Assembly: GCA_001972305.1 (NCBI GenBank)
Contig: BDDD01001369.1
Span: forward strand, 339,052-403,051
Reading direction: 5' to 3'
Source of the DNA: Cephalotus follicularis
Taxonomy: Eukaryota; Streptophyta; Magnoliopsida; Oxalidales; Cephalotaceae
Length of the DNA: 64,000 bases
The notes beneath the pieces are model-generated. The model saw only the letters and a program-made list of their open reading frames with translations, had not been told where the DNA came from and did no database searches. The position numbers and the translations under genes are program-made. Below are positions 1 through 63,409 of the stretch, piece after piece; position 1 is the stretch's first letter, and each line of letters opens with the position of its first letter.

Positions 1-3000
1 AGACACACACACACACACACACACAATGGTCACTAAAGGAAGAAAAAGACGCCTCACACACACACACACACACAGTGAAGAAGGAGTGAATTCTGCCATT
101 TATGCCACACACACACACACACACATTGATAAAACACTCCTCTATTCATCCCTACCCACACACACACACACACACAGAAACACAAAGAGAAACAAGGAAA
201 TCAGAGACACACACACACACACACACAATCTTCCTCCATTGTTGAACCAAGGGAGAAACACACACACACACACACACACTACTGACTTGAACGGAGAGTA
301 ACCAAACCGCACACACACACACACACACACTACTGGACAGGACTTAAAGAGGTGGACATTCACACACACACACACACACAGAGGTAGGGGATTATAGTGG
401 AATTTCTAAATCACACACACACACACACACAGATGTTCTTTCCATTGATGATATGCATGAATCACACACACACACACACACATTGGGGTTACTGGATTGT
501 TACATGTCTACTGCACACACACACACACACACACATGATGAGTTTGATGTGTATATTGGACTGGCACACACACACACACACACAATTTCCTCTGGTTTGG
601 TTGGGATGATGAAGACACACACACACACACACACAAGCATCGACGCTCACGTTAGAAGCGTCGACGCACACACACACACACACACAGGACGTCGACGCTT
701 AAAGAAAACGTCGACGCCACACACACACACACACACAACTGTAATGTTCACTTGTGGATTGCATGATTCACACACACACACACACACAGGTTACATATGT
801 TGATAACCTTATATGTGTACACACACACACACACACACATCTGGGATTGCATGTAAGTTTGGGGGATGGACACACACACACACACACACATGGTTGCAGC
901 GATAATTCACGCTATTACTTACACACACACACACACACACAGCGCCGATGCCTGTGGTTTGCTGTTCCTGGGCACACACACACACACACACAAACACTAA
1001 GGTTCCTACCTTAGGCGTCGATGCACACACACACACACACACAGCTCAAGGAACCTATCCTTGAAGCGTCGACGCACACACACACACACACACAATTTAC
1101 AACTGGTGTAAGCACTAACGCCTGGCACACACACACACACACACAAGGACATAAGCGTCGATGCCCAGAGGATAAGCGTCGACGCTTATCCCCCTGGTTT
1201 GGTTGGGTTGGCCCGAATTGGACCCATTGACTCTGAAACGACTCGTCTGAGCATATGATAGCATTGCACTTGCATTATCACACACACACACACACACATG
1301 AATTGGATGTTGATTGAATGGATTGTTATCACACACACACACACACACAATTTTTAGGGAGTTGCATACATGATATGTTGCACACACACACACACACACA
1401 ACTGCTATGTTCAAACAGTTTTACCGTTTTACACACACACACACACACACATTGAATAAACATGCTGTTTTAAAAGGATTGTCACACACACACACACACA
1501 CAGTTGTTACAAGTATTTTATAATGCATAATTTCACACACACACACACACACAAATATATTGACAAATATATATGTTTTCAAGTCACACACACACACACA
1601 CACATAAATTAGATTGTGATTGGATTGTACCGTATCACACACACACACACACACACCACTGTCGCTAATAGGCGGGTTGGACTCTACACACACACACACA
1701 CACACAACTCTTGCAATATACAAGAGGGGGGGTGAATCACACACACACACACACACAAGAAAATAAAAACTTTAAAGTAAAGAGTGTACACACACACACA
1801 CACACACATTTAGAGTGGTTCGGCTAACTCTTGCCTACGCACACACACACACACACACATCCTTGAGTTTCCACTATCTCGAATTGATTACACACACACA
1901 CACACACACATTACAACTTTGGTGATTGAACTCAATCACAACACACACACACACACACACATAGAGGATTCACCTCTTTTTCAAGTGTTTGTCACACACA
2001 CACACACACACACTCTCAACAGGTTTGATTTATCTTATAATACCACACACACACACACACACAAGGAAGAACTCAAAGGATAGAGCTATGAAACTTCTTG
2101 AGAACACTTTAGAGCACTTGAGCTTTGTGGAACTAGAATGCTTGACACACACACACACACACACATGTCTCTCTTGTGTTTCTGAAGGTTTTGAATCACA
2201 CACACACACACACACAAAGTCTTTGTAGCCGTTGCATAAATCTTGGGCACACACACACACACACACATGTGTTGGTGCAACTCTGTTTTTTGTGCCTGCA
2301 CACACACACACACACACATCTTTTGAAAGGCGTCGATGTCTTTGTCGGTCACACACACACACACACACATTTACTAGCCGTTCCTTAATTCCCGGGTCAA
2401 CACACACACACACACACACATGTCTTTTATAGGCGTCGATGTCTTTTCTGGCACACACACACACACACACAGGTTATGAGCATCGCATCGATGTCTTCTT
2501 GACACACACACACACACACACAATTTTGCAGTTGAGTCTTGAAACACATCGATCACACACACACACACACACAGTCTTTTGTTGGACGTCGATGTCTTCA
2601 CATACACACACACACACACACACACAAAATTGGCCTGTAACTTTGGTAGCTCAAGCACACACACACACACACACAGGGATCGATGTCTTTTGTTTGGACG
2701 TCGATGCACACACACACACACACACATGTCTTTACTCAAAATTGGCCTGTAACTTTGCACACACACACACACACACACTTCTTGAAAGGGATCGATGTCT
2801 TTTGTTTGCACACACACACACACACACACAAGGGTCGATGTCTTTACTCAAAATTGACTCACACACACACACACACACAACGTCGATGTCTTTTTGCAAA
2901 GGGATCGATGTCTTTCATCAAAAGTGGCCTGTAACTTTGCTGGGTCAAGGGCGTCGATGTCCACACACACACACACACACATCTTTTCTATGCAACTGTC

Positions 3001-3317
3001 TTTTGCCTTTTGCACACACACACACACACACACACATTAAGTGAACTTTGTTAAATGCAAATACACACACACACACACACACATTGAGTCTAAATCATCA
3101 ACACAGGAGTTGGCCACACACACACACACACACATCACTTAACTGCTGTGCTAATGACTTTGGATCACACACACACACACACACACCGGAGAGTGGTGGC
3201 TGGAGTGAGGAGTACACACACACACACACACACACACGGTGCCTTCGTAGCTTTTTATTGGATTGTGCACACACACACACACACACATTTGCTCTATTGG
3301 CGGATATACATGTATAT

Positions 3318-3338
<21 letters not shown>
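1..3338. repeat. Phase-locked (CA)10 grid, exact 51-bp period
   Basis: Blocks of exactly (CA)10 occupy positions 55+51k to 74+51k, for k from -1 (4-23) to 64 (3319-3338). I checked the block ends along the whole array: 62 of 66 grid sites are filled, and no site is shifted by a single base. Runs look longer only where neighbouring native bases happen to be C or A. Between blocks lie 31 bases of native sequence, different each time. The empty sites are 1177-1196, 1228-1247, 2095-2114 and 2911-2930, and the phase is kept across them. Comparison of three local repeat copies at 2676-2930 shows that the blocks replace native DNA and do not add length. As 51 is a multiple of three, open frames here encode His-Thr or Val-Cys runs every 17 codons. 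These are not genes. The array continues to the left window edge. Confidence 0.97.
1700..3115 (-). mobile_element. Copia LTR relic under the CA grid
   Basis: The native 31-base pieces follow, in order, the Copia-type LTRs at 37825-39076 and 62091-63409. They show the run of G before GTGAAT near 1724, AAAGAGTGTA near 1785, GTGGTTCGGCTAACTC near 1815, GTGATTGAACTCAATCAC near 1922, an AGGTTTGAT match near 2020, and the closing GTTGGCC near 3112. In those LTRs this set marks the end next to the primer-binding site, so the relic is read as minus-strand. Its body carries many copies of a GTCGATGTCTTT motif. No internal region is seen, so a solo LTR inside the surrounding Gypsy LTR is the simplest reading. 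The boundaries are approximate because four-tenths of the bases are masked by CA blocks. Confidence 0.55.

Positions 3339-3380
<42 letters not shown>
3319..3380. repeat. (CA)n(TA)n compound microsatellite
   Basis: The last grid block (3319-3338) runs without a break into further CA units to 3350 and then a TA run to about 3379. This is the only place in the array where CA continues well past its 20-base slot, so it looks like a natural microsatellite at the right edge of the grid. Confidence 0.85.
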
Positions 3381-3385
<5 letters not shown>

Positions 3386-3938
3386 ATATATATAATGTAT
3401 GTATTATTATTGGATACTATGTATTGCATCCATGATTGCATACATTACATGACATGCATTATCTTTGATCCCGATTTGCACTTATAACTTTTCTACTTAG
3501 CCGAGTGAGGACAAAGGCTAACCCCCTACTATTTCAGATTGATGCGGTGGGGCAGACATGGATCAGCATGGATAAGGATCAAATTGTAATAATGCTATTT
3601 ATCGAACTTGTTTTCTTCTGGATTATGTTGAGCTGTTTCTGTATTAAATGGTTGTTGTATTCCGTACTTTTGGTTTACATGTTTTATGTTATTAATGGAT
3701 AAGGTTATGATCACACTCCGTTTTGTGGGTAGTTAATAATGAAGTATGGTATTCAATTAAATATTGTAGTAGCATGTAGTATGGGATGCGTGTTACGGTT
3801 GTTAATTCAGCTTATATATTATGCTTCCGCAAGTTATTGATGATATTGAACGGTTTAAATTTTATCATAATTGCATAAGTCGAATTAATATGTTGATTGC
3901 CACTACCATATATGTTGTTTTGGAAACGGGGTGTGACA
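3339..3938. mobile_element. End of a Gypsy LTR
   Basis: The segment ends in GGGGTGTGACA at 3938, the terminal form of the Gypsy LTRs in this window. It carries two boxes shared with the LTRs at 11569-14496 and 18663-21326: ACTTAGCCGAGTGAGGAC at 3495 and GTAGTATGGGATGCGTG near 3777. After 3938 the sequence enters a minus-strand Gypsy protease region, with no primer-binding site, so this LTR (or the element it belongs to) was inserted into element A. Its first TSD copy would be GCTCT at 3939-3943. The partner lies left of the window. The rest of the LTR lies under the CA grid. Confidence 0.75.
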
Positions 3939-11568: not shown

Positions 11569-14496
11569 TGTAATAACCGCAAATTCAATTAATGTATATT
11601 GATCCAATTTTGAAATAAAATATACATTTTAATAGAGTTAATTGTCCAATTATTATAATTTCTATGATTGGTAAATGCTTGGGATGAATGGATGTGCAAT
11701 TGGTGAAGTATCAGAATTAAGAAGCCCTAAACCAGCCTAAACAGCCGACTGTCACAGGATAACGGTCAACTATTTGATACATGTTGAAGGCAGTTGACTG
11801 CCCAGTACAGCCAGTCGACTGGATTAGTACAGGACAGACTTCTGGCATGTGCAGAGACAAGGAGGACAGGTGTGTTAGGTGGCACATGCGTGTCACCACC
11901 TGCCACCACATGCAAAAAGGGGATGCTTGCATGTTCTCTGCAGACCTACAACCTACAAACTGAAAAATAATGAGAGAAAGGTGAAGAGAGGGATGCATGT
12001 GATGGAAAGAAAAGAGAGAAAGATGAGTGCATGTGACTTAGAAAGGAATCTGACGAATTCAAAGTCTTTTGGCCTTATATCAGCTGTTGAATGGTGAAAT
12101 GAGTGTTAGAAAACACTGAATATTGAGGAAAGTTGATGGGATTATTGAGAGCTTGCTTTGGAAGAATTAGAAAACTCAAAGAAGGAGGATTGAAGCTTTG
12201 GACTCTTGATAAGTTTCTAAGCTCGAACTTACTGTTATTATAATGATAATGTAACTAGGAGAATGTTGAATACCTTCTGTTCACATAATTAAAGATGACA
12301 GATTCTAGAATTGAAATGGGAATTGGTAAATGGATCAAGTGGAAATGGTGACTATAACCTCTAGATTGGATTATAGTTGATGTTAAGGTCAGGATATGCT
12401 CACTTATATATGCATCTTTTGTCAACACACTTAACATCAATAAATCCGAGTTTGAATAATAGTGGACATAGAGTTCAAAGGAAATTGTAAAATGGGAGTT
12501 TAGGACTTGATGGATTTGGTAATAAGCTACTGTTGAAGTAGTAATTGTATCTGATAATTAGAAACCTACTGGTACTAATGCATATGCCATAAATATGCAT
12601 GCATAGATTGAACTTGCTGGAATTGAAGGATTGTTGTTGAAAGGCTTTGGAAACTCAAAGAGATAGATCACTCCAATTGATCTTGGGATAAGCTTTTGAG
12701 GTAGGGGCTATGATATGACTGTGAAATATATATTATGCATGTCATGTTTGATGGTTATACTGATTGTATGTGTTTGTTTGAATGATTTGGATTGAGAGCC
12801 TGCATATTCTGTTCTGCGGAATGAACTTCTGGGCAAAAGCAGTCGACTGTTCATGAGGAACAACCGACCACTCAACCCAAGAAGTCGACTGTTCATAGGG
12901 AACAACCGACTACTCATCCTAATTAGTCGACTGCCAAGAAAAGCAGTCGACTGCTGGGAATAAATAGCCGACTACCACAGGGACGCAGCCGACTGTTCTG
13001 GGCTGTTAAAGGAAATTGTCCAGTTTTCGCGGAAGATCAGTGCTAGAGTTTGAACATACTCGTTAAGCTTGACAATTATAGATTCGTATGGATTATTGGA
13101 CTCATACTTCTAAGGATCAATCCCTCTCATATAATAGACAATAGTGTACTATTATTGCTAATGCCAAATCGAACTTCAAAGTGTACCGTTTGATTCCTTG
13201 AGTGATTTGATTGTACCATTTCGGACTGAATTCCTGTAATTACACTAGCTTCCACAGAGGATAATTTCCAATCAGTCCCTGCTAAATGTAATCAAAACAC
13301 AGGAGACTGAATGTCCTATATACCCTATGTGGTGGAACCCGGATCCGAGACCGGATAACTATGAATTCGGTTTAGTTGTTCATACTGCTGCTGATGTGTT
13401 AAGCGTTATTGGTTTGATTTCTCCCAAGTGAGACTTCTTACATTTATTTCTTCATTGAAACTCAATGTTATTTGAATTGTTTGCTTCTTTGAGGAAAAGT
13501 ATCCTTGATGAAGTCATTATACGAAAGTGCATATTTTCAATAGATTGAATATTGTTGCTATACATTTTGAAAATGTATAAATCAAGTATTTTACTCCTAT
13601 AAACTACTTGAAATGACTTATTGAACTGATTGATAGTTATAAACATAGAGTGTAATTTAACTTGGTTACAATCATAGAGTGTGATGTAACAAGGTTACTA
13701 AACATGGAGTGTCATGTAACCGGATGCTAAACACATGAGTGTACGCGTCCCTACATTGTCCATATGGTTAGTTACAATCATAGAGTGTGATGTAACGAGG
13801 TTACTAACCACGGAGTGTCATGTAACCGGATGCTAAACACATGAGTGTACGCGTCCCTACATTGTCAAATTATTAGTTACAATCATAGAGTGTGATGTAA
13901 CGAGGTTACTAATCACGGAGTGTTATGTAACCGGATGCTAATCATATGAGTGTACGCATCTCTAAAGATTGGATTGATTGGTCCTTTGCGACGTGATTGA
14001 TTAAATGATTCTTTTTAGCCAGTTGGCATGATTGCTCATATATATATATATATATTGGCATGTATATGTTTTTGCTGTTCAGATTTAACTACCTTGCATG
14101 GATACATTTATATATTCGTTTTCATACATGTTCCTTACTTAGCCGAGTGAGGACAAAGGCTAACCCCCCTACAGTTTCAAATTAGGCGAAGACTGGAGTT
14201 TGCTGCCAAAGCTGGAAGAGCTTCTATTGTCAGCTTAAGGTTGTTCCTTTATTTTAATGCGTTGTAATTGTAATGAACGGTTCATATCCCGTGCTATTGT
14301 ATTTCCTTTTGTTAAAGGATATTGTTGGATTATGCCTGCACGTAGTATGGGATGCGTGCGGATGGCTTGTTTTATATTCCGGCTTATCGAATGCTTCCGC
14401 AAATTTAATTATGAATTGTTGCTGGAATATTATTATGCTTATTGCTGATATCGCCTTATATGCTTGTCTAACGTGAATGGAAAACAGGGTGTGACA
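11569..14496 (+). repeat. 5' LTR of the TR-GAG-like element
   Basis: It is 2928 bp, bounded by the TSD on the left and the PBS on the right. AGTCGACTG-type motifs cluster at 12838-13000. A tandem triplet of about 105 bp lies at 13661-13965. The ACTTAGCCGAGTGAGGAC box is at 14137 and GTAGTATGGGATGCGTG near 14342. No gene is inside. Confidence 0.9.
13661..13965. repeat. Three ~105-bp tandem repeats in the LTR
   Basis: Units start near 13667, 13772 and 13876, each with CATAGAGTGTGATGTAAC and a later GTAACCGGATGCTAA. The same triplet is in the 3' LTR at about 23229-23525, so it predates this insertion. Confidence 0.85.
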
Positions 14497-16004: not shown

Positions 16005-17892
16005 AAGTGCGGGTAGCGTTCTTGGATGTCCTCCTCACGCTCCCAAGTTGCCTCATCAGGTTTGTGAAACTACCATTGAACCTTGACCATGGAAATGGTT
16101 CGGTTCCTCAAAGTCTGCGTCTTCCGATCGAGAATCCGCACAGGTAACTCCTCACAAGATAGATCATCCTGTACAGGAACAGTATCATAATCCAGGACAT
16201 GTGACGGGTCCGGAATATATCTCCTTAGCATAGATATGTGGAAGACGTCGTGCACGTTTGACAGTGCAGGAGGTAAGGCAAGCTGATAAGCTACCTCCCC
16301 GACTCTCTCTAGAATCTCAAAAGGACCAATGTAGTGTGGAGCTAATTTGCCTCTCTTCCCAAATCGTTGTATGCCCTTCCATGGTGATACTTTTAAGAAC
16401 ACATGATCACCCACATTAAAGACCAGAGGTCTCCTCTTCACACTGTCAGTGTAGCTCTTCTGTCTACTCTGAGCAGCAAGCAGCTTCTCCTTGATGAATT
16501 TGACTTTCTCCGAAGTCTCCTCCACTAAATCTGACCCAAGCAGTGGTCGATCCCCAACCTCGTCCCAACAGACGGGTGACCTACACTTCCTCCCATACAG
16601 TGCCTTAAACGGTGCCATGCCGATACTAGAATGATAGCTGTTGTTGTAAGAAAACTCTATTAGAGGAATGTGATCCTCCCAGGTACCAGCAAAATCAATT
16701 ACACAAGCCCGAAGCATATCCTCCAAGGTTTGGATGGTACGCTCCGATTGTCCGTCTGTCTGAGGGTGGAAGGCAGTACTCAAGTTCAGCTTCGTCCCGA
16801 AGGCTGACTGAAACCTCTTCCAAAAGTTGGAAGTGAAGATAGCATCCCTATCACATACGATGCTGACTGGAACACCGTGCAGCCTCACTATCTCCTTCAC
16901 ATACAATCGAGCCAACTTGCTCGCAGAATCTGTGACATGTGTCAGCAGAAAGTGTGCTGATTTGGTGAGTCTATCCACGATAACCCACATGGCATTATGA
17001 CGGTTCCGAGTCAAAGGAAAACCCGAAACAAAATCCATCGTAACATGTTCCCACTTCCACTCTGGAATAGGTAAAGGTTGTAGCAAACCTGCCGGTCTCT
17101 GGTGCTCGGCCTTAACTATCTGGCAAGTCCAACACTTCGCCACATACTCGGCAATCTCCCGCTTCATGCCGGGCCACCAATAACACTTCTTCATGTCCTG
17201 ATACATCTTCGTGCTACCTGGATGAACGCTGTACATAGATTTATGAGCCCCACAGAGTAGTTCATCCTTCACTCTAGGCTCATTCGGAAGACATACACGT
17301 CCTCGATATCTCATAATACCATCTTCATGTACTCTAAAATCCGACTCCGAATCCAGATTCTCTCGAATCTTCTGTAATTCAGGATCATGAGGTTGTGCCT
17401 CTTTGATGCGATGCAATAACACTGGTTCTAACCGCATATCTGCTAGAATGATTCCCGGTGACTGATTAAACGGGTACCATTCTTGGAAGTCTTCCAGCAT
17501 CTTCCATTGTGACACCATTGTACTAGCAAGAATAGGCTTGCGGCTCAAGGCATCAGCGACTACATTCGCTTTCCCTGGGTGGTACTGGATACTGCAGTCA
17601 TAATCATTAAAGAACTCGACCCATCTGCGCTGTCTCATGTTCAGTGTATCCTGACAGAACAGGTATCTCAAGCTCTTATGATCGGTGAAGATCTCGAACT
17701 GCGCCCCGTACAGGTAGTGCCTCCACTTATGAAGGGAAAAGATGATAGCTGCAAGCTCAAGGTCATGGGTCGGGTAGTTTTCCTCGTATGGTTTAAGCTT
17801 CCTTGAGGCATATGCAATCACTCTGCCTCGCTGCATCAATACACAGCCCAAACCCTTTCCCGATGCGTCACTGTAGACTGCAAAGCCGGTCG
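16005..17892 (-). pseudogene. Element N pol: RNase H, integrase, chromodomain
   Basis: The minus strand encodes the 3' half of a Gypsy pol. RNase H begins VYSDASGKGLGCVLMQ (about 17880) and includes TDHKSLRYLF. The integrase zinc site is visible as H...H and CWTCQIV (about 17200-17110). The catalytic core holds VTMDFVSGFP (first D), IVCDRDAIF (second D) and HPQTDGQSERTIQ (the E lies here). The GPY/F-type region is GDHVFLKVSPWKG and HYIGPFEIL (about 16430-16290). Near the end RILDRKTQTLRNRTISMVKV is the chromodomain start, but a stop (about 16070) falls inside it and ATWEREEDIQERY follows in frame. The start of RNase H, all of RT, protease and the zinc knuckle are missing because of the fusion with gag. 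Replication-defective. Confidence 0.93.
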
Positions 17893-18552
17893 CAAACCCT
17901 TCAAAAACCTCCTTATCTTCTTCACATCATCAGCAACCAGATATGGTGAGTGTCTGGATAACTCCATGAATCTGGCCTGGTACTCGGCCACAGACATCTC
18001 CCCTTGCCGTAACTCCAGAAGTTCACTCTCCCTCCGTTCTTGCTCCATCCGAGGTACATAGGAATCGAGGAACTCTGTCTGGAACCTCTCCCATGTAGCG
18101 TCAAGTCCAGCTGACTCCCACTTTGCTTTGACCATTTCCCACCAGTGAGTGGCCTCTCCCCATAGACGGTACACGGCAAATTTCAGCTTTTGAGCATCAG
18201 TACAATCCATCACTGCAAAAATCTTCTCTAAATCTTGAAGCCATATTTCAGCAATCGTGGCGTCAAGCTCTCCCCGGAAACTAGGTGGGTTTTGTCTCAT
18301 GAATCTCTCGATGTCCCTTCCGAATTGACTACTATCCTCTCCCGGGCAATGATCGGGAGCTCTGTGTGGCGGTCGGGCTTGCGCGTAGTGTTGGCGCATC
18401 TCCTCCGCATTGGCCATAATAAAGGCCATCTGTTGCTGGAAATAGTCAGCAATCCGGGTCATCGGGTCTCTAGTATCCTGAGGAACATTCACTCCTTCAG
18501 GGGCGTTGGCTCCAGGGGCCCTAGCCCTACCACGCGTTCTCCTTCGGTCCAT
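17890..18552 (-). pseudogene. Element N gag, fused out of frame to pol
   Basis: It starts MDRRRTRGRARAPGANAPEG at 18552. The gag domain is intact up to RRFLKGLRP: FGRDIERFMRQNPPSFRGEL, YRLWGEATHWWEM, LLELRQGEMSVAEYQARF. It then breaks at about 17890, exactly where RNase H begins in another frame, so the open frame runs 17 codons into pol in the wrong frame and stops at 17836. The zinc knuckle, protease and RT (normally over 2 kb) are deleted. Its protein motifs closely match those of the TR-GAG gag at 14601. Confidence 0.88.
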
Positions 18553-18648
18553 TGTTCCTATAAGAAGGACGACGGTTAGTCACGACTTTAGGAAAAACAA
18601 TTATTGATTGCCAAGGAAAATATCCTAGCTAAGCATATATGGAATATG

Positions 18649-18662: not shown

Positions 18663-21326
18663 TGTCACACCCCGTTTTTCAATATAAAAGACAACATATA
18701 AGTGGTAAAGCAATCAAACAAGATAATCCAGCTCATGCGAAAAACCAATAATTTAAAACTTTCGTTAGTGGAAGCAATAACTTAAATGAGCCGGAAAAAA
18801 AAACACATCACGCATCCCATACTACGTGATGCCCGATAACCAAGCGTAACCGTTGATCGCTCAAAACGGAGCGTGAAGTAAAAGTTCAATACAAGATAAC
18901 AAATATCATTTGTTACAAAAATCCAAATAACATGATTCAAAGTTCGATAACCCAAATACATAAATAAGAGAAATAACAAGTCTTCTCTTTAAACCTCCGT
19001 GCATGCTCCATGTCAAGACCACTCCATCAATCTGTTACAATAGGGGTTAGCCTTTGTCCTCACTCGGCTAAGTGAATAAACCCATAAAATACAGTTCGAG
19101 TCATAAGATAAAGAGTATCAAAAATGGATGCATAATAGTGAGCCATGACATGTAATTTCCACAGTAAAAATACCTCCGTGTATGCACATAAAATATATGC
19201 ATGCTCACAGTACAAGTATAACTCATAAGTTATATCAACACAGGCAGTAAATATGTTCCAAAAAGGAACCAGACAAACCAGTCGTCATGACCGTCGCCAC
19301 CTCATGGCCCCAACGTCACGCACTCTTGCTTTAACCCAAATGGTTTTGGAGCAAGTCCTCAGTAAGTTGTTTAGCACGAAGACTAAACCAACCGCAGGTT
19401 ACTAGCACAATGGCTAAGTAATCAACAAGTTATTAGCACGGTGGCTAATAATCAACAGGTTATTAGCACGATGGCTAATAATCAACAGGCACAAGCATTT
19501 CACAGTACAAGTCAAGAAATTACATATAATTACTTGATCAAAATATATTTGTTTAAAATATACTTTTCCGTTCACAAGTTGTAATAAGTCATAAACTTAA
19601 AACAATACATTTTTCTGTCTTTGGAAATACTTCCCCAATCATTTCGAAAATATATACATTCATAAATTATATATTTTCGCAAATTACATTTGGTTTCATA
19701 ATCAAACCCTTAAATCAGTTCTCTGTCATTGGAAATACTTCCCCAAGCATTTTGAAGATATATAAATTCAGGTGTTGACAAATATAGATTTTCGTACCCA
19801 AATGATCATAATAATCATGCAAGCTTTTCAAAATGGTTTAACACTTTTAGGAAAGCAACCATAATGTAAATCACAGTGACAATGTAACCATATGCTCAGA
19901 ATGCATCTAGGTTCGTTTCTAGAGTCGTTTCGGTCTAACGGTTCTCATTCAAGCGAAATCCTGCTGATCAGGGGAAAAGGCGTCGATGTCATTCTATAAG
20001 GCGTCGACGTCTTTTTCATACCAAAGGTATCCAAACGCAAGTCTTGGTTTTAGAGGGTGAAATCCAACCTTTTAATCCCTCGGATAAACGAATATCACTC
20101 TATAAACGTATAAGGTATGCTACTGGTTAACAAAAACACGACCAGAACATCAAATCGAAATCAAATAGGCGATCCCGAGTGGCTTAAATGGCTATCTGAA
20201 ATGAACATCACAGTTCATACAATTCCCAGAAAAGGAGTCGATGTCTTTGTAAAAGACGTCGATGTCTTTTACAGCACATAACGTGTTTTCCACAGTTTTA
20301 ACACACCAAGCCATTTCTAAATCAATCCTTTTCACGTGCAATACACGTATTCATGTAATCATACATGCGTAATTAACTCAGTGTATCTCAGTAATACTAC
20401 AACAAGTCCAAAATCTCAATCCAAGCATCAACATGCAATTCATCATGCTATACCTTAACTTAGAACTCAAAATGCACATATAAATCTATCACTTTCCCCT
20501 ACCTTATTGTTCCAAGTTAGGAACTGGAAAGTCCACCTCTTTTAGTATCCAAACAGGTCACAGCGGCCTCTCTAGGTCCGTCCCGTAGCTGCACCAGCAG
20601 CTCCAAAGTCCAAGCTCCAAGATCCAAGCTCAACAATGGCACACACACACCCACTGTTTTCTTCTGGTGTTATAAAACGAGAGAGAGAAGTGGGAAGGGT
20701 CGTTCTTATGCAGATTCCTTCCACCTAACACCCTTCTTCTGTCATTTAACAGGTCAGCCCCGAGATCTCTCCCACTTCCAAGTTTTCTGCATTTCCTTAT
20801 CATTTTCTAATCTTCTTTCTGCAGGTTGCATGTTAGGATGGCATAATCCTTGCATGTTCCATGTGAGGGTAGGTTTTAGTGCTCCTGGTCAGTACACAAA
20901 CATGCCCAACACGTCGAAACGCACTTGAAAAGGCATTAGGTAAAGCCTTTAAACAATTCCCCCTGCATGTTATTCTGCCGACGAAGAACGTGCTGGCCAT
21001 TCTTACAAAGGCGTCGACGTCTTTCCTTGGACGTCGATGTCTTTTGTATTTGTAAGAAAGTGTCGATGCCTTCTCCCATCGTCGACGTGCATGTTCCTTC
21101 AAACACGTGTGCCCTGACTCCCAAAGGCGTCGACGGCTTTCCAAAAGACGTCGATGTCTTTATGCCAAGACAGTACCGTTTCAAGCTTTTAATACACATT
21201 CCATTACCAAGGTCATAAGTAGGGTTTATAAGCATCTTTTGAGCTCAAACTGGACATTCTCATTAAATCAAGTTTAATGATTACATCATAAATGGAAGTA
21301 TTACATTCAGGAAAATACCGGGTGTT
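18663..21326 (-). repeat. 5' LTR of element N
   Basis: It is 2664 bp. On the minus strand it begins AACACCCGG (leading TGT missing) and ends GGGGTGTGACA. It shares the GCCGAGTGAGGAC box (19040-19073, reverse) and GATGCGTG box (near 18817, reverse) with the TR-GAG LTRs and the LTR ending at 3938. GTCGACG/GTCGATGTC motifs are at 19980-20010, 20235-20265 and 21008-21170. A TTATTAGCAC-type short repeat lies at 19395-19480. No gene is inside. Confidence 0.85.
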
Positions 21327-24053
21327 GTCGACTGTTTGATACGTGTTGAAGGCAGTCGGCTGCCCAGTACAGCCAGTCGACTGGATTAGTACAGGACAGA
21401 CTTCTGGCATGTGCAGAGACAAGGAAGACAGGTGTGTTAGGTGGCACATGCGTGTCACCACCTGGCACCACATGGAAAAAGGGGATGCTTGCATGTTCTC
21501 TGCAGACCTACAACCTACAAACTGAAAAATAATGAGAGAAAGGTGAAGAGAGGGATGCATGTGATGGAAAGAAAAGAGAGAAAGATGAGTGCATGTGACT
21601 TAGAAAGGAATCTGACGAATTCAAAGTCTTTTGGCCTTATATCAGCTGTTGAATGGTGAAATGAGTGTTAGAAAACACTGAATATTGAGGAAAGTTGATG
21701 GGATTATTGAGAGCTTGCTTTGGAAGAATTAGAAAACTCAAAGAAGGAGGATTGAAGCTTTGGACTCTTGATAAGTTTCTAAGCTCGAACTTACTGTTAT
21801 TATAATGATAATGTAACTAGGAGAATGTTGAATACCTTCTGTTCACATAATTAAAGATGACAGATTCTAGAATTGAAATGGGAATTGGTAAATGGATCAA
21901 GTGAAAATGGTGACTATAACCTCTAGATTGGATTATAGTTGATGTTAAGGTCAGGATATGCTTACTTATATATGCATCTTCTGTCAACACACTTAACATC
22001 AATAAATCCGAGTTTGAATAATAGTGGACATATAGTTCAAAGGAAATTGTAAAATGGGAGTTTAGGACTTGATGGATTTGGTAATAAACTACTGTTGAAG
22101 TAGTAATTGTATCTGATAATTAGAAACCTACTGGTACTAATGCATATGTCCATAAATATGTGTGCATAGATTGAACTTACTGGAATTGAAGGATTGTTAT
22201 TGAAAGGCTTTGGAAACTCAAAGAGATAGATCACTCCAATTGATCTTGGGATAAGCTTTTGAGGTAGGGGCTATGATATGACTGTGAAATATATATTATG
22301 CATGTCATGTTTGATGGTTATACTAATTGTATGTGTTTGTTTGAATGATTTGGATTGAGAGCCTGCATATTCTGTTCTGCGGAATGAACTTCTGGGCAAA
22401 AGCAGTCGACTGTTCATGAGGAACAACCGACCACTCAACCCAAGAAGTCGACTGTTCATAGGGAACAACCGACTACTCATCCTAATTAGTCGACTGCCAA
22501 GAAAAGCAGTCGACTGCTGGGAATAAATAGCCGACTACCACAGGGACGCAGCCGACTGTTCTGGGCTGTTAAAGGAAATTGTCCGGTTTTCGCGGATGAT
22601 CAGTGCTAGAGTTTGATCTTACTCGTTAAGCTTGACAATTATAGATTCGTATGGATTATTGGACTCATACTTCTAAGGATCAATCCCTCTCATATAATAG
22701 ACAATAGTGTACTATTATTGCTAATGCCAAATCGAACTTCAAAGTGTACCGTTTGATTCCTTGAGTGATTTGATTGTACCATTTCGGACTGAATTCCTGT
22801 AATTACACTAGCTTCCACAGAGGATAATTTCCAATCAGTCCCTGCTAAATGTAATCAAAACACAGGAGACTGAATGTCCTATATACCCTATGTGGTGGAA
22901 CCCGGATCCGAGACCGGATAACTATGAATTCGGTTTAGTTGTTCATACTGCTGCTGATGTGTTAAGCGTTATTGGTTTGATTTCTCCCAAGTGAGACTTC
23001 TTACATTTATTTCTTCATTGAAACTCAATGTTATTTGAATTGTTTGCTTCTTTGAGGAAAAGTATCCTTGATGAAGTCATTATACGAAAGTGCATATTTT
23101 CAATAGATTGAATATTGTTGCTATACATTTTGAAAATGTATAAATCAAGTATTTTACTCCTATAAACTACTTGAAATGACTAATTGAACTGATTGATAGT
23201 TATAAACATAGAGTGTAATTTAACTTGGTTACAATCATAGAGTGTGATGTAACAAGGTTACTAAACATGGAGTGTCATGTAACCGGATGCTAAACACATG
23301 AGTGTACGCGTCCCTACATTGTCCATATGGTTAGTTACAATCATAGAGTGTGATGTAACGAGGTTACTAACCACGGAGTGTCATGTAACCAGATGCTAAA
23401 CACATGAGTGTACGCATCCCTACATTGTCAAATTATTAGTTACAATCATAGAGTGTGATGTAACGAGGTTACTAATCACGGAGTGTTATGTAACCGGATG
23501 CTAATCATATGAGTGTACGCATCCCTAAAGATTAGATTGATTGGTCCTTTGCGACGTGATTGATTAAATGATTCTTTTTAGCCAGTTGGCAGGATTGCTC
23601 ATATATATATATTGGCATGTATATGTTTTTACTGTTCAGATTTAACTACCTTGCATGGATACATTTATATATTCGTTTTCATACATGTTCCTTACTTAGC
23701 CGAGTGAGGACAAAGGCTAACCCCCCTACAGTTTCAAATTAGGCGAAGACTGGAGTTTGCTGCCAAAGCTGGAAGAGCTTCTATTGTCAGCTTAAGGTTG
23801 TTCCTTTATTTTAATGCGTTGTAATTGTAATGAACGGTTCATATCCCGTGCTATTGTATTTCCTTTTGTTAAAGGATATTGTTGGATTATGCCTGCACGT
23901 AGTATGGGATGCGTGCGGATGGCTTGTTTTATATTCCGGCTTATCGAATGCTTCCGCAAATTTAATTATGAATTGTTGCTGGAATATTATTATGCTTATT
24001 GCTGATATCACCTTATATGCTTGTCTAACGTGAATGGAAAACGGGGTGTGACA
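21327..24053 (+). repeat. 3' LTR of the TR-GAG-like element, 5'-truncated
   Basis: It aligns with 11763-14496, ends GGGGTGTGACA, and is followed by the TSD CCTAA. The first ~195 bp of the LTR are missing where element N sits. Confidence 0.9.
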
Positions 24054-33180: not shown

Positions 33181-33855
33181 TTATAATGTTGGCAAAAAAA
33201 AAAAATTACAGAAGTAGAGACAATGAGACGAGCTGCACCACCAGCTAACCTTTCCTCCCCTTGCATGTTGGTTCTTTGATGTCCCTTTTAAGCCGGGGAT
33301 CCTTGTTTGCATTTCCCTAACCTTGTTCCTGTCCACTTTGAGATGCATGGCTTGCCAGCTCTCCACTAGCAACTCTTTAGCACACGATACGTGAAGATTA
33401 ATGGTCTTGCATTGAGACCTGTAAGACCAACTAGGTCCTTTACCTCCACAATGATGGCATGAGCTCGATAGCTTAAGATACAAGTAAAGGTGACGTTCTC
33501 CATCATCTAGTACTTGAGGCAGATTTGAACAACATGGGTGCATGTCAAAACCACACCCCTTGCAATGGTAGACAAACCCCACAACATCATTTCTACATGC
33601 ATCACATATCCTCATTTCTCTACCAGGAGGTTTATATTTGAACTCGAACTCACATCCTTTGTAGAATGGATGATTGATGGTTGCAGGTGCCACTGCACAT
33701 GTCTTGTGCAAGTCAAACTCGCATCACTGGCAAGTGTATTTTAGGCCAATGCCTGCTTCCTTGCAACCATCACACTTGAATGGCGTCTCTGTGTATACAA
33801 GCTTTAGCTTGTGTTGTGGGTGGATTGGGTGAATGATTTCTTTATCAATTCTCAT
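33181..33855 (-). pseudogene. DC1-domain (CHP-rich) zinc-finger gene fragment
   Basis: This is a captured fragment of a plant cysteine/histidine-rich C1 family gene; DC1 proteins are plant-specific zinc-binding proteins, many tied to stress or signalling. The likely start is MRIDKEIIHPIHPQHKL at 33855. The first module reads FKCDGCKEAGIGLKYTC, followed by a stop (about 33726) where DC1 domains have Trp, then CEFDLHKTC. A second module has HPFYKGC, then CDACRNDVVGFVYHCKGC and FDMHPCC. A third begins CHHCGGKG and has LHVSCAKE. The C-terminus is not DC1-like. The length (about 225 codons) is at the low end for the family. The in-frame TGA makes it a pseudogene unless it is read through. It lies between the CACTA left end and its transposase, on the opposite strand. 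Confidence 0.85.
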
Positions 33856-36456: not shown

Positions 36457-36488
36457 NNNNNNNNNNNNNNNNNNNNNNNNNNNNNNNN
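36457..36488. other. Assembly gap (32 N)
   Basis: A run of 32 N. The sequence on its left (GC-rich LTR-like) and right (Copia internal) is unrelated, so the join is not proven by sequence. Confidence 1.
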
Positions 36489-36650
36489 CTCCATCCACTA
36501 AGGATATGAAAACCACTTAACGTTAAACGGAAACTACTTAACGAACATCTCAAATTCTTTTTTACAAGTGTTACGTGAAGTGAATTCTTTTTATACTGAT
36601 CATATCTTTTCCTTTTCCTTAATGATCAATTACTTTTACTCGTAAATTTT

Positions 36651-37769
36651 TTACTGTAACGATACAATCTTGTACTTAATCGAATTTTCGCTATCCTCGT
36701 CATCGTCACTCAATGCCATAAAGCATAGGTTTGCCACTTGCTCGGTGACTTCTTCATCGGATGATTCATCATCACTTAGGTGCCATGCCTTTAGAGCTTT
36801 CTTCTTGAATAGCTTCTTTTTCTTCAATTGTGGACAATCAACTTTGATGTGCCCCGACTTGTTGCATTCGAAGCATGTGGGAGGATCCATCTTGCTTCCT
36901 TCTCCCTTGTTGAAGTTTCTCTTTTGAAATCTTCTTGCCTTGTTCATCTTTGCGAATTTTGTAAACCGTTTCGCAAAGAGAACATAATCCTCTTCCTCTA
37001 GCTCATCTCCACTAGACATCTCCTCCTTGTGAGTGCTCTTGAGGGCAATGTCTTTTCTTCTTTCTTCTTGTGGCTTTGTCTCCACAAGCTTTACCGATTT
37101 CTTATTCAATTTAACCTCATGAGTCATGAGGGAGCCAAGCAATTCCTCAATTTCCATAGTCTTCAAGTCCTTGGATTGTTCAATTGCCGTTACTTTGGGT
37201 TCCCACTCATCGTTGAGACACCCTAGAAATTTCCTCACTAATTCATCCTGTCCAAACACCTTACCAAGACCAAGCAAAGCATTAGTAATGTCAAGCAACC
37301 GATTATACAAATTTTTAATAGATTCATTCGGTTGCATTTTGAACAATTCATAATCTCTATTTAGCAAGGCAAGTTTGGCATTCTTAACTTGCTCGGTACC
37401 CTCGTGGGTGAGAATGAGCAATTTCCACACCTCATGTACGGAAGTACATCTCCTAACGAGATTGTATTCGGTCTTGTCTAAGGCTACAAGTAATATGTTC
37501 AAGGCCTTGTTATCTATAGTCAATTTTCTAAAGTCCTCTTCATCCCATTCGTCTTCCGGTTTGGAAACGAGTTCATTTTTGTCATTGAGCTTCGTAGGGG
37601 TGTGAGGGCCATTTTTAACACTAAGCCAATTTCTAAAGTCTCTAGACTTAAGGTATATCTCCATACGGCTTTTCCAATAAGGAAAATCGTCACCACTAAA
37701 GAATGGGACCTTAAATTCGGAGACGTCGTCATTGTGTCGGGATTGGGTGTTCATGCTAGTAGCGGCCAT
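36651..37769 (-). CDS. Copia gag polyprotein fragment
   Basis: Open frame of 372 codons from MAATSMNTQSRHNDDVSEFK at 37769, just after the PBS. It has the usual Copia gag layout: an N-terminal region with FSGDDFPYWKSRMEIYL, a UBN2-type gag domain (TSVHEVWKLLILTHEGTEQV, YELFKMQPNESIKNLYNRL, FLGCLNDEWEPKVTAIEQSK) and one CCHC zinc knuckle CFECNKSGHIKVDC near residue 300. An acidic tail (DDESSDEEV) follows. Gag forms the particle that packages element RNA. The frame is unbroken and ends at 36651. Protease, integrase and RT would follow but the gap comes 160 bp later. Well preserved, so the insertion is probably recent. It may be silent. Confidence 0.88.
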   Translation of the reverse strand: MAATSMNTQSRHNDDVSEFKVPFFSGDDFPYWKSRMEIYLKSRDFRNWLSVKNGPHTPTKLNDKNELVSKPEDEWDEEDFRKLTIDNKALNILLVALDKTEYNLVRRCTSVHEVWKLLILTHEGTEQVKNAKLALLNRDYELFKMQPNESIKNLYNRLLDITNALLGLGKVFGQDELVRKFLGCLNDEWEPKVTAIEQSKDLKTMEIEELLGSLMTHEVKLNKKSVKLVETKPQEERRKDIALKSTHKEEMSSGDELEEEDYVLFAKRFTKFAKMNKARRFQKRNFNKGEGSKMDPPTCFECNKSGHIKVDCPQLKKKKLFKKKALKAWHLSDDESSDEEVTEQVANLCFMALSDDDEDSENSIKYKIVSLQ

Positions 37770-37811
37770 TGATCTAAACTCAAGATGTTAATCTTAATAA
37801 AGAGTAACCCT

Positions 37812-37824
37812 CTCTGATACCAAT
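37812..37824 (-). other. Copia primer-binding site
   Basis: The minus strand reads ATTGGTATCAGAG directly after the LTR end TTCCAACA. Confidence 0.8.
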
Positions 37825-39076
37825 TGTTGGAAGTCTAGAGGGGGGGTGAATAGACTTATAAAAAATTTAACTAGCAAAAATACCACCAATTTAAAAATAA
37901 TTACACAAACACACAATGCGGAAAATAAAGAGTGTAGGGTTTAGAGATTTGCAAACAGATTTATAGTGGTTCGACAAACCGCCTACGTCCACTCCCCAAG
38001 GCCTGCCCTTGAGTATTCACTAGTATGCCCCAATCCGGGCTTGGAACTCCAACCGAGCTCCAACACTTTCGCTCCAACCAAGCAAATTACAAATGTGCTC
38101 CAACCGAGCAATACAAGAGACAACCTCTCTTGTATGAATGAAGTAAGTGTTTAAAGATTTACAAATTCGTAATGAATTTGTTTACAATGAAGCTCACTAT
38201 GAACAAAGCTTAGAAATGTGTATGTAAGGTAAGGTACAAAGCTTTGTGAAATGTAAAAGATTGCTTTGGATTAGTCTCTTTTGATTTGTGTGAATGCTTA
38301 GTATTGGACTAAGATAGCTTGAGATTGTATGGCACTTGAATGCTTGATCACTTGTGCAAGAAGTCCAATTTTCCTTAAATAGTTAAGCCTCCAACGGATC
38401 TATTTTTAACTGTCTGTTACAAATCCAGTCGGCTGGATTTGGACAGCAGCTGGCTGGATTGATGGCGCGTTTATTTGAATATAGTCGTTGGGAGTAGGCA
38501 GTCGGCTGGATACTGTAGACAGTCGGCTGGATGTCTTGGCAGTCGACTGATGCCCTGCTTCAGTCGGCTGTTGAGGCTAAATTGGAAGTTACAAAACCTA
38601 CTGCCAGATTTTGCACAATTGATGGCAGTCGGCTGGACCCCTGTGGCAGTCGACTGGTCCCCTGCTTCAGTCGGCTGGATTGGATGTAAAATGATACAGA
38701 AGCTTCTGCCTGATTTGTATCCCATGGAAGTCGACTGATGCCCTGTTGCAGTCGACTGAAATTGCCTGGCAGTCGACTGGAATATGCTGGCAGTCGACTG
38801 GACTGGGCTTCTGCAGATTTCTGGGTTTAGGTTGAAGATGCAGTCGACTACATAGCCTTGAGTGTCGACTTCTTTGCCTTGGCAGTCGACTGGATTGCCC
38901 TCCAGTCGGCTGGAATTGCCTGTATCTGCATAAACACTCTTGGCACAACTTTGGACAAAGAATCAAGTGAGTAAATACGTTTATAACTTAAAGGATTATG
39001 CATACAAGTAAGTTACATTTGTTAATCATCAAAATAACATGTGGTGAACATTTAATCGGGGTGGCAAAGGCCAACA
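37825..39076 (-). repeat. Copia LTR, 1252 bp
   Basis: On the minus strand it starts TGTTGGCC at 39076, right after AAAAAGGGGGAGAT (polypurine tract), and ends TTCCAACA at 37825 before the PBS. The region 38420-38930 is crowded with AGTCGACTG and AGTCGGCTG motifs (more than ten). It is related to the LTR at 62091-63409 and to the relic under the CA grid. Confidence 0.88.
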
Positions 39077-62090: not shown

Positions 62091-63409
62091 TGAAAGTACT
62101 ACAAGAGGGGGTGAATTGTAATATGTGTAAAATAATGAACCTTTTGATATATGAATATGATTAGCAAATTAAATATAAAATGCTAAACAATACTCAAGCA
62201 ATTCAAATATAGTAAGTAAATGACTTGAATTGAAATGTAAATAAAGTGTGAGGGTTTAGAATTTGCAAACAGAATTTATAGTGGTTCGGTTAAACTCTTG
62301 CCTATGTCCACTTTTCCTAAGACCTCGTGAGATTCTACTAGTATTCAACCTTGAATACAAACTTTCTTTACGGGAGCAATTCTGTGCACCTTACAATTTC
62401 CGTGATTGAACTTAATCGCATACACTTTCTAACCAAAGTGCAACAAGGGTTCACTCCCCTTGATAATCAAAGTTACAAATGATTGTTTGGTGTTTTTGTA
62501 TAACCTTTACAAGGTTTGATATTGAATAAATAAGCTCACTTACAGTTGCTCAAGATAAGAGAATAATACTTGCTTAAGCCTTTGCAGCTTTTGAACTTGA
62601 GAGAATTTTGCTTTGAATGATTTGAATGCTTGGTAATTGATAAGTCTAGTAATTATTGTTCTTCAAATGATTCAAGCCTCTAATTTATAGTCCTCAGTAA
62701 AATAGAGCCGTTGGTGAATATTTGGGATTTAATTTGGTTTTGAAAATACTGACTGGATTTCAAACCCGACCCCAAAGCTCTGATGGTCTCCCATTAAGTG
62801 TCGCCGCTTAAAGGTTACCGTTATGCCTTAATTTGAATCAGCCTAAAGTGCTGACAATGTCCCACATAGCGTTGCCGCTTTAAGGTTACCATTATGACTT
62901 AAATTAAATCTTTCTGTTTAACCTTTGTTGGTTTGGCTTCTTATTGTTTGAGCTTATCTAAGTGCTGATGTTTTACTCAAAGTGTCGTCGGTTAGTGTTC
63001 TTCAGCTATTCTCACAAGTTGCTTAATTGTTGATGCTTTTTCCATTATGGACATCTTTCCTAAGTCTTTGTCTTAAAGCGCTGACATGGCCTTCTAAACT
63101 GTTGGCGCTTTGGCTCTAAGCGCTAATAGTTTTTCCTGAGCGTCGTCACTTTAGACACATTTGCTGGGACCCGAGTCCCTTAATTGCTGACGGTTTGAAT
63201 GTAGCCTTTGTCGATCTATCTAAGCGCAAACGGTTACTTTGTAACAGTTGACGCTTTGCCCTATTTTGCCACTCAGTGTTGGAAATGCTTCTTTGTTTGA
63301 TTTTTCATGTAATCTTTAGCATTTTTAACATATAGCATAAAAGAGAAATAATGTTTTAGATGCAAATATGTTATCATCAAAATTAGGACTGAGACCAATA
63401 ATGTCAACA
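62091..63409 (-). mobile_element. Copia 3' LTR (family G)
   Basis: On the minus strand it starts TGTTGACATT at 63409, directly after AAAAAGGGAGAAAT (polypurine tract), and ends TACTTTCA at 62091. It is 1319 bp. Shared landmarks with the LTR at 37825-39076 are GAGGGGGTGAAT near its end and GTGGTTCGG (62280). Degenerate AAGCGTTGACGCTT-like motifs fill 62770-63260. It is inserted in element D next to the protease piece. Confidence 0.8.

Follow-up and report, generated by a model that had tools for sequence, protein, structure and literature searches.

A lattice of (CA)10 blocks that extends over 36.9 kb of contig BDDD01001369.1 of the Cephalotus follicularis assembly is, as judged from sequence comparison, very probably the product of a fault in sequence assembly or correction, by which plant DNA was overwritten in place. 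Comparison with relatives shows that (CA)10 has been written in place over 20 bases per 51-base chunk of ordinary plant DNA, a retrotransposon gene among it, and we hold with high confidence that the lattice is present in the file and absent from the plant. The stretch of DNA analysed (64,000 bases, hereafter the window) corresponds to positions 339052-403051, the right end of this 403,051-base contig, in an assembly of 1.577 Gb. Coordinates are those of the window unless the contig is named (Table 1).

Within the window, the lattice sites are spaced by 51 bases at 4+51k (k = 0 to 65; 4 to 3319), and exact (CA)10 is present at 62 of the 66 sites. All 62 runs of at least five CA units in positions 1-3360 are on the lattice, one of them starting two bases ahead of its site owing to a CA at the end of the left flank. 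The pattern of block, 31 bases and block has 58 matches in the window and none in 100 dinucleotide shuffles of it. The first-pass annotation had described (CA)10 at all 66 positions; the lattice stands, with the correction that four sites, 1177, 1228, 2095 and 2911, carry no block and differ from (CA)10 at 13-16 of the 20 positions. The first two of these are spanned by a single unblocked stretch (1147-1278). The 31-base pieces, taken at first to be mutually unrelated, are not all so, several of them lying within a degenerate tandem repeat (TRF period 112). The sequence under the lattice at 2299-2961 consists of degenerate tandem copies in which a GTCGATGTCTTT-like motif is frequent, and it seems to have relatives in the 21-base units at 20230 and 21119. 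No lattice of words other than the CA block was found in the window when 10-mers occurring six or more times, the two pure CA words left out, were scanned for the same spacing four or more times. Searches of the window for RNA families and tRNAs also gave none.

Table 1. Positions in the window of the lattice, its unblocked sites, the microsatellite at its right end and the intact control sequences.
Feature	Position	Strand	Remark
Window tail of the lattice	1..3338	+	62 exact (CA)10 at 4+51k, with 31-base native pieces between
Unblocked lattice site	1177..1196	+	Ordinary sequence
Unblocked lattice site	1228..1247	+	Ordinary sequence
Unblocked lattice site	2095..2114	+	Ordinary sequence
Unblocked lattice site	2911..2930	+	Ordinary sequence; 2880-2961 around it is an unblocked copy of the local repeat
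(CA)16 run	3319..3350	+	Last lattice site flush on it; likely source of the repeated 20 letters
(AT)14 run	3352..3379	+	Rest of the compound microsatellite; right of it no lattice in the window
Intact relative of lattice stretch 1809-2145	62250..62520	+	Off the lattice; control
Intact copia gag stretch	36517..38063	-	Relative of contig 306111-307694; control for the overwritten copy

The first-pass annotation had limited the lattice to 3.3 kb and had advised a look to the left of the window; there the lattice continues, starting 33.6 kb outside, so that the whole extends on the contig from 305456 to 342389 (the end of the last block) with blocks at 666 of 723 sites. Since most of it lies outside the window in the assembly, it was not planted in the window alone. 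Two segments were distinguished, the left segment A (contig 305456-326009; 404 sites, 380 blocks) and the right segment B (contig 326152-342370; 319 sites, 286 blocks), separated by a single phase slip, in which 143 bases lie between the blocks at 326009 and 326152, equivalent to a shift of -10 or +41. The slip falls within an unblocked stretch. The absence of drift noted earlier thus holds inside the window only, because the lattice extends to the left with this slip. No trigger was visible at the left end (contig 305456). No lattice was present in contig 1-109 kb or in nineteen 1-kb samples from contig 119 to 300 kb, one of which contained a single (CA)10. A pattern of three blocks gave no match in two collections of viral and prokaryote sequences (viral_contigs and genome_contigs), neither of which includes plants.

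At its right end, the lattice is flush with a compound microsatellite: the last site (3319) coincides with the start of a (CA)16 run, to the right of which lies (AT)14, so that the last of the 666 blocks is the beginning of the microsatellite itself. Off the lattice, runs of at least four CA, TG or AC units were counted by script at only five other places in 49 kb.

The blocks are all-or-none: no lattice site carries 1-10 mismatches to (CA)10, none is partly written, and no block shows mutational drift. Their flanks are near background, CA preceding 46 and following 50 of the 666 blocks as compared with 6.5% CA in the pieces. Within each segment, the 57 unblocked sites stay in the 51-base phase, and they occur in clusters, forming 29 runs of one to four sites against 52.6 runs expected, a number as low being obtained in none of 10000 shuffles. 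Between the 31-mers that follow unblocked and blocked sites, no clear difference was detected in GC (0.405 and 0.382), in 3-mer complexity (21.9 and 21.5) or in the number that match the available sequence (17/57 and 155/665). Unblocked sites of segment A favour a lag of 26 sites (1326 bases; 8 pairs), which was reached by 0.0025 of 2000 random placements when all lags above 4 were considered; this preference was examined post hoc, after the data had been seen, and is taken as a lead only. Segment B gave no preference for any lag (0.541).

Deliberate editing at fixed coordinates, such as a watermark, a masking scheme or a planted test sequence, would agree with the exact 20/31 geometry and with one constant filler throughout the 36.9 kb. 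Such editing, however, has no need to skip 57 sites in clusters, to slip in phase or to end at a CA run, and none of these three features is explained by it; we regard it as improbable.

Whether the blocks replaced native bases or were added to them was examined with relatives of the affected DNA. When window 1-3400 was searched against the same genome, 76 matches were obtained, and the best covers query positions 1704-3063 at 71% identity. Had software or a mobile process inserted a (CA)10 after every 31 native bases, the relative would be expected to lack 20 bases for each block; the unmasked spans are instead nearly equal, with 1360 bases at query 1704-3063 against 1340 in the relative L001, and 902 bases at query 1705-2606 against 900 in L003. 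When 24 blocks were masked and aligned with 20 relatives from the same assembly (L001-L020), the block faced exactly 20 native bases in 323 of the 358 usable pairs, the other 35 having 19 bases (25 pairs), 21 bases (seven pairs), or 16, 17 and 18 bases (one pair each). A pair was considered usable when both flanking pieces were at least 75% identical, by which 358 of 480 pairs were kept; of the 122 excluded, 104 involve the six blocks in the degenerate repeat (2605-2860), in which the opposite length is often other than 20. The mask of 20 N in the query biases these block alignments, and also that of copia gag below, towards 20, and therefore most weight is placed on the unmasked spans and on the control with blocks cut out, both of which are independent of the mask.

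An overwritten copy of a copia gag gene at contig 306111-307694 was compared with the intact stretch in Table 1. Outside the blocks, 823 of 929 bases were identical, and 28 of 31 blocks were opposite exactly 20 native bases (two opposite 19, one opposite 11). The alignment scored 1305 with 15 gaps when blocks were left in place and 683 with 36 gaps when they were cut out. The lattice runs through the gag frame, neither breaking the frame nor sparing the gene, and the frame under it reads VCVCVCV every 17 residues; in mechanical listings, other open frames of either strand carry THTHTHT or VCVCVCV at the same interval. Among the best 120 of 153 protein matches to the intact gag frame (36651-37787, minus strand), the top one is from Cephalotus follicularis (87% over 89% of the query), and a partial copy of the same species is 96% identical over 43%. 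The overwritten copy gave 46 protein matches, of which 36 name Cephalotus and 10 have a name that ends before the species. Both sets of matches point to Cephalotus or a very near relative as the source of the window. The translated block motif was absent from the 134 listed proteins, a set of gag relatives that draws in one part on the best 120 of 153 matches and from which proteins encoded at this locus may be missing. A 32-base run of N at 36457-36488, the only one in the window, lies near the intact gag frame.

More distant or repetitive comparisons were mixed. Against the relative at 62250-62520, replacement was favoured with a score of 101 against 35. Against 62200-62700, the best score was obtained with 26-30 bases under each block, not 20, at strict gap penalties and with 18 bases at lenient ones; when nine 31-mers were placed singly on the same relative, only two scored above all shuffles, and five were collinear at nearly 51-base spacing with four elsewhere. 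The evidence in favour of insertion comes from the internal unblocked copy at 2880-2961: in two of three comparisons with it, removal of the blocks gave the higher score (73 against 66 and 76 against 64; 48 against 49 in the third), which we attribute to the short motif that recurs in this copy. Against insertion, the unblocked sites hold the 51-base phase in each segment, which insertion would break. Despite the mixed results at the internal copy and at 62200-62700, the closer relatives (the own-genome matches, L001-L020 and copia gag) are judged to settle the question: in the stretches compared, the blocks replace native bases and are not inserted. For these stretches insertion is refuted by the unmasked spans together with the L001-L020 and copia gag alignments, and over the lattice as a whole it is very improbable. 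By comparison with relatives (the two block counts and the equal unmasked spans), native sequence lies under the altered positions, as expected of an artefact.

A process in the living plant that writes (CA)10 over 20 of every 51 bases has in its favour the sequence as given and the remark, made in the first-pass annotation, that 51 bases is close to five helical turns; it is hardly conceivable in view of the lack of mutational drift in any block, the all-or-none replacement, the copia gene overwritten in place and the single-base regularity across segments of 20 kb and 16 kb. The same very low probability is given to a real overwriting process over 37 kb that began at the CA microsatellite and spread in one direction, and we know of no DNA process that fits in-place overwriting with such geometry.

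A software fault, in contrast, fits the in-place overwriting together with the end on one microsatellite, and on these two points the artefact of correction, gap-filling or masking that the first-pass annotation had ranked as likeliest is upheld, within the limits of what a single window could reveal. A candidate mechanism would be as follows. Some program may have written this part of the contig in 51-base chunks, each composed of 20 and 31 bases, and its 20-base register could have become stuck on the contents of the chunk with (CA)16 at the right end. The stuck 20-base part would then be written again into each successive chunk to the left, with the 31-base part still refreshed correctly, and recovery for short runs of one to four chunks would leave the unblocked sites. 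Since the right end is flush on (CA)16, the register was probably loaded from this microsatellite, and writing would have advanced leftwards (or rightwards on the other strand). The 20/31 split is seen in the sequence itself, and the program behind it is one that we infer. This account gives no cause for the skipped clusters or for the left end. The polisher NextPolish was considered because of a supposed chunk limit of 50, for which no confirming paper was found, and it is not proposed as the culprit; the link to a program using 31-mers, suggested by the first-pass annotation, is likewise a guess.

Among known systems, faults of assembly, gap-filling and polishing in draft eukaryote genomes are alike in that wrong letters occur in an otherwise normal contig and have an edge at a low-complexity repeat. 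To our knowledge, no described assembly fault has a fixed overwrite of 20 in 51 bases, and among the papers listed none was recognised by its title or the beginning of its abstract as describing one. Copies in microsatellites and minisatellites arise by slippage or duplication, so that the unit number varies and sequence is added. The lattice blocks share the (CA)n motif with such arrays but differ in constant unit number, lack of slippage, varied sequence between the blocks, and bases replaced instead of added: each is exactly (CA)10 save for background CA in the flanks, in place of 20 native bases. In CRISPR-like arrays, constant and variable pieces also alternate regularly, and the spacers are separately acquired pieces between repeats; here, in contrast, a simple repeat in a plant host forms the constant piece, and successive 31-base pieces are, in the stretches compared, collinear with intact plant relatives at 51-base spacing. 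The first-pass annotation had likewise set both kinds of array aside.

One contig of the assembly contains about 13 kb of false sequence (665 blocks of 20 bases), and the letters at block sites are unfit for use. The artefact creates false microsatellites, damaged retrotransposon genes and false open frames with the repeated residues described above, which repeat surveys, marker design and genome-trained models could mistake for real. For developers, the signature (51 = 20 + 31, all-or-none, flush on a CA run) may serve to trace the faulty program and to screen other assemblies.

Elsewhere in the window, two sets of tandem repeats at 12837-13964 and 22400-23527 are near-identical and 9563 bases apart; they bracket gypsy-type pol and gag-like frames, named by eye, at 16070-18579 (minus strand) and resemble the long terminal repeats of a single retrotransposon. 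A Cys/His-rich frame at 33181-33723 (minus strand) resembles, by eye, a plant DC1-domain protein.
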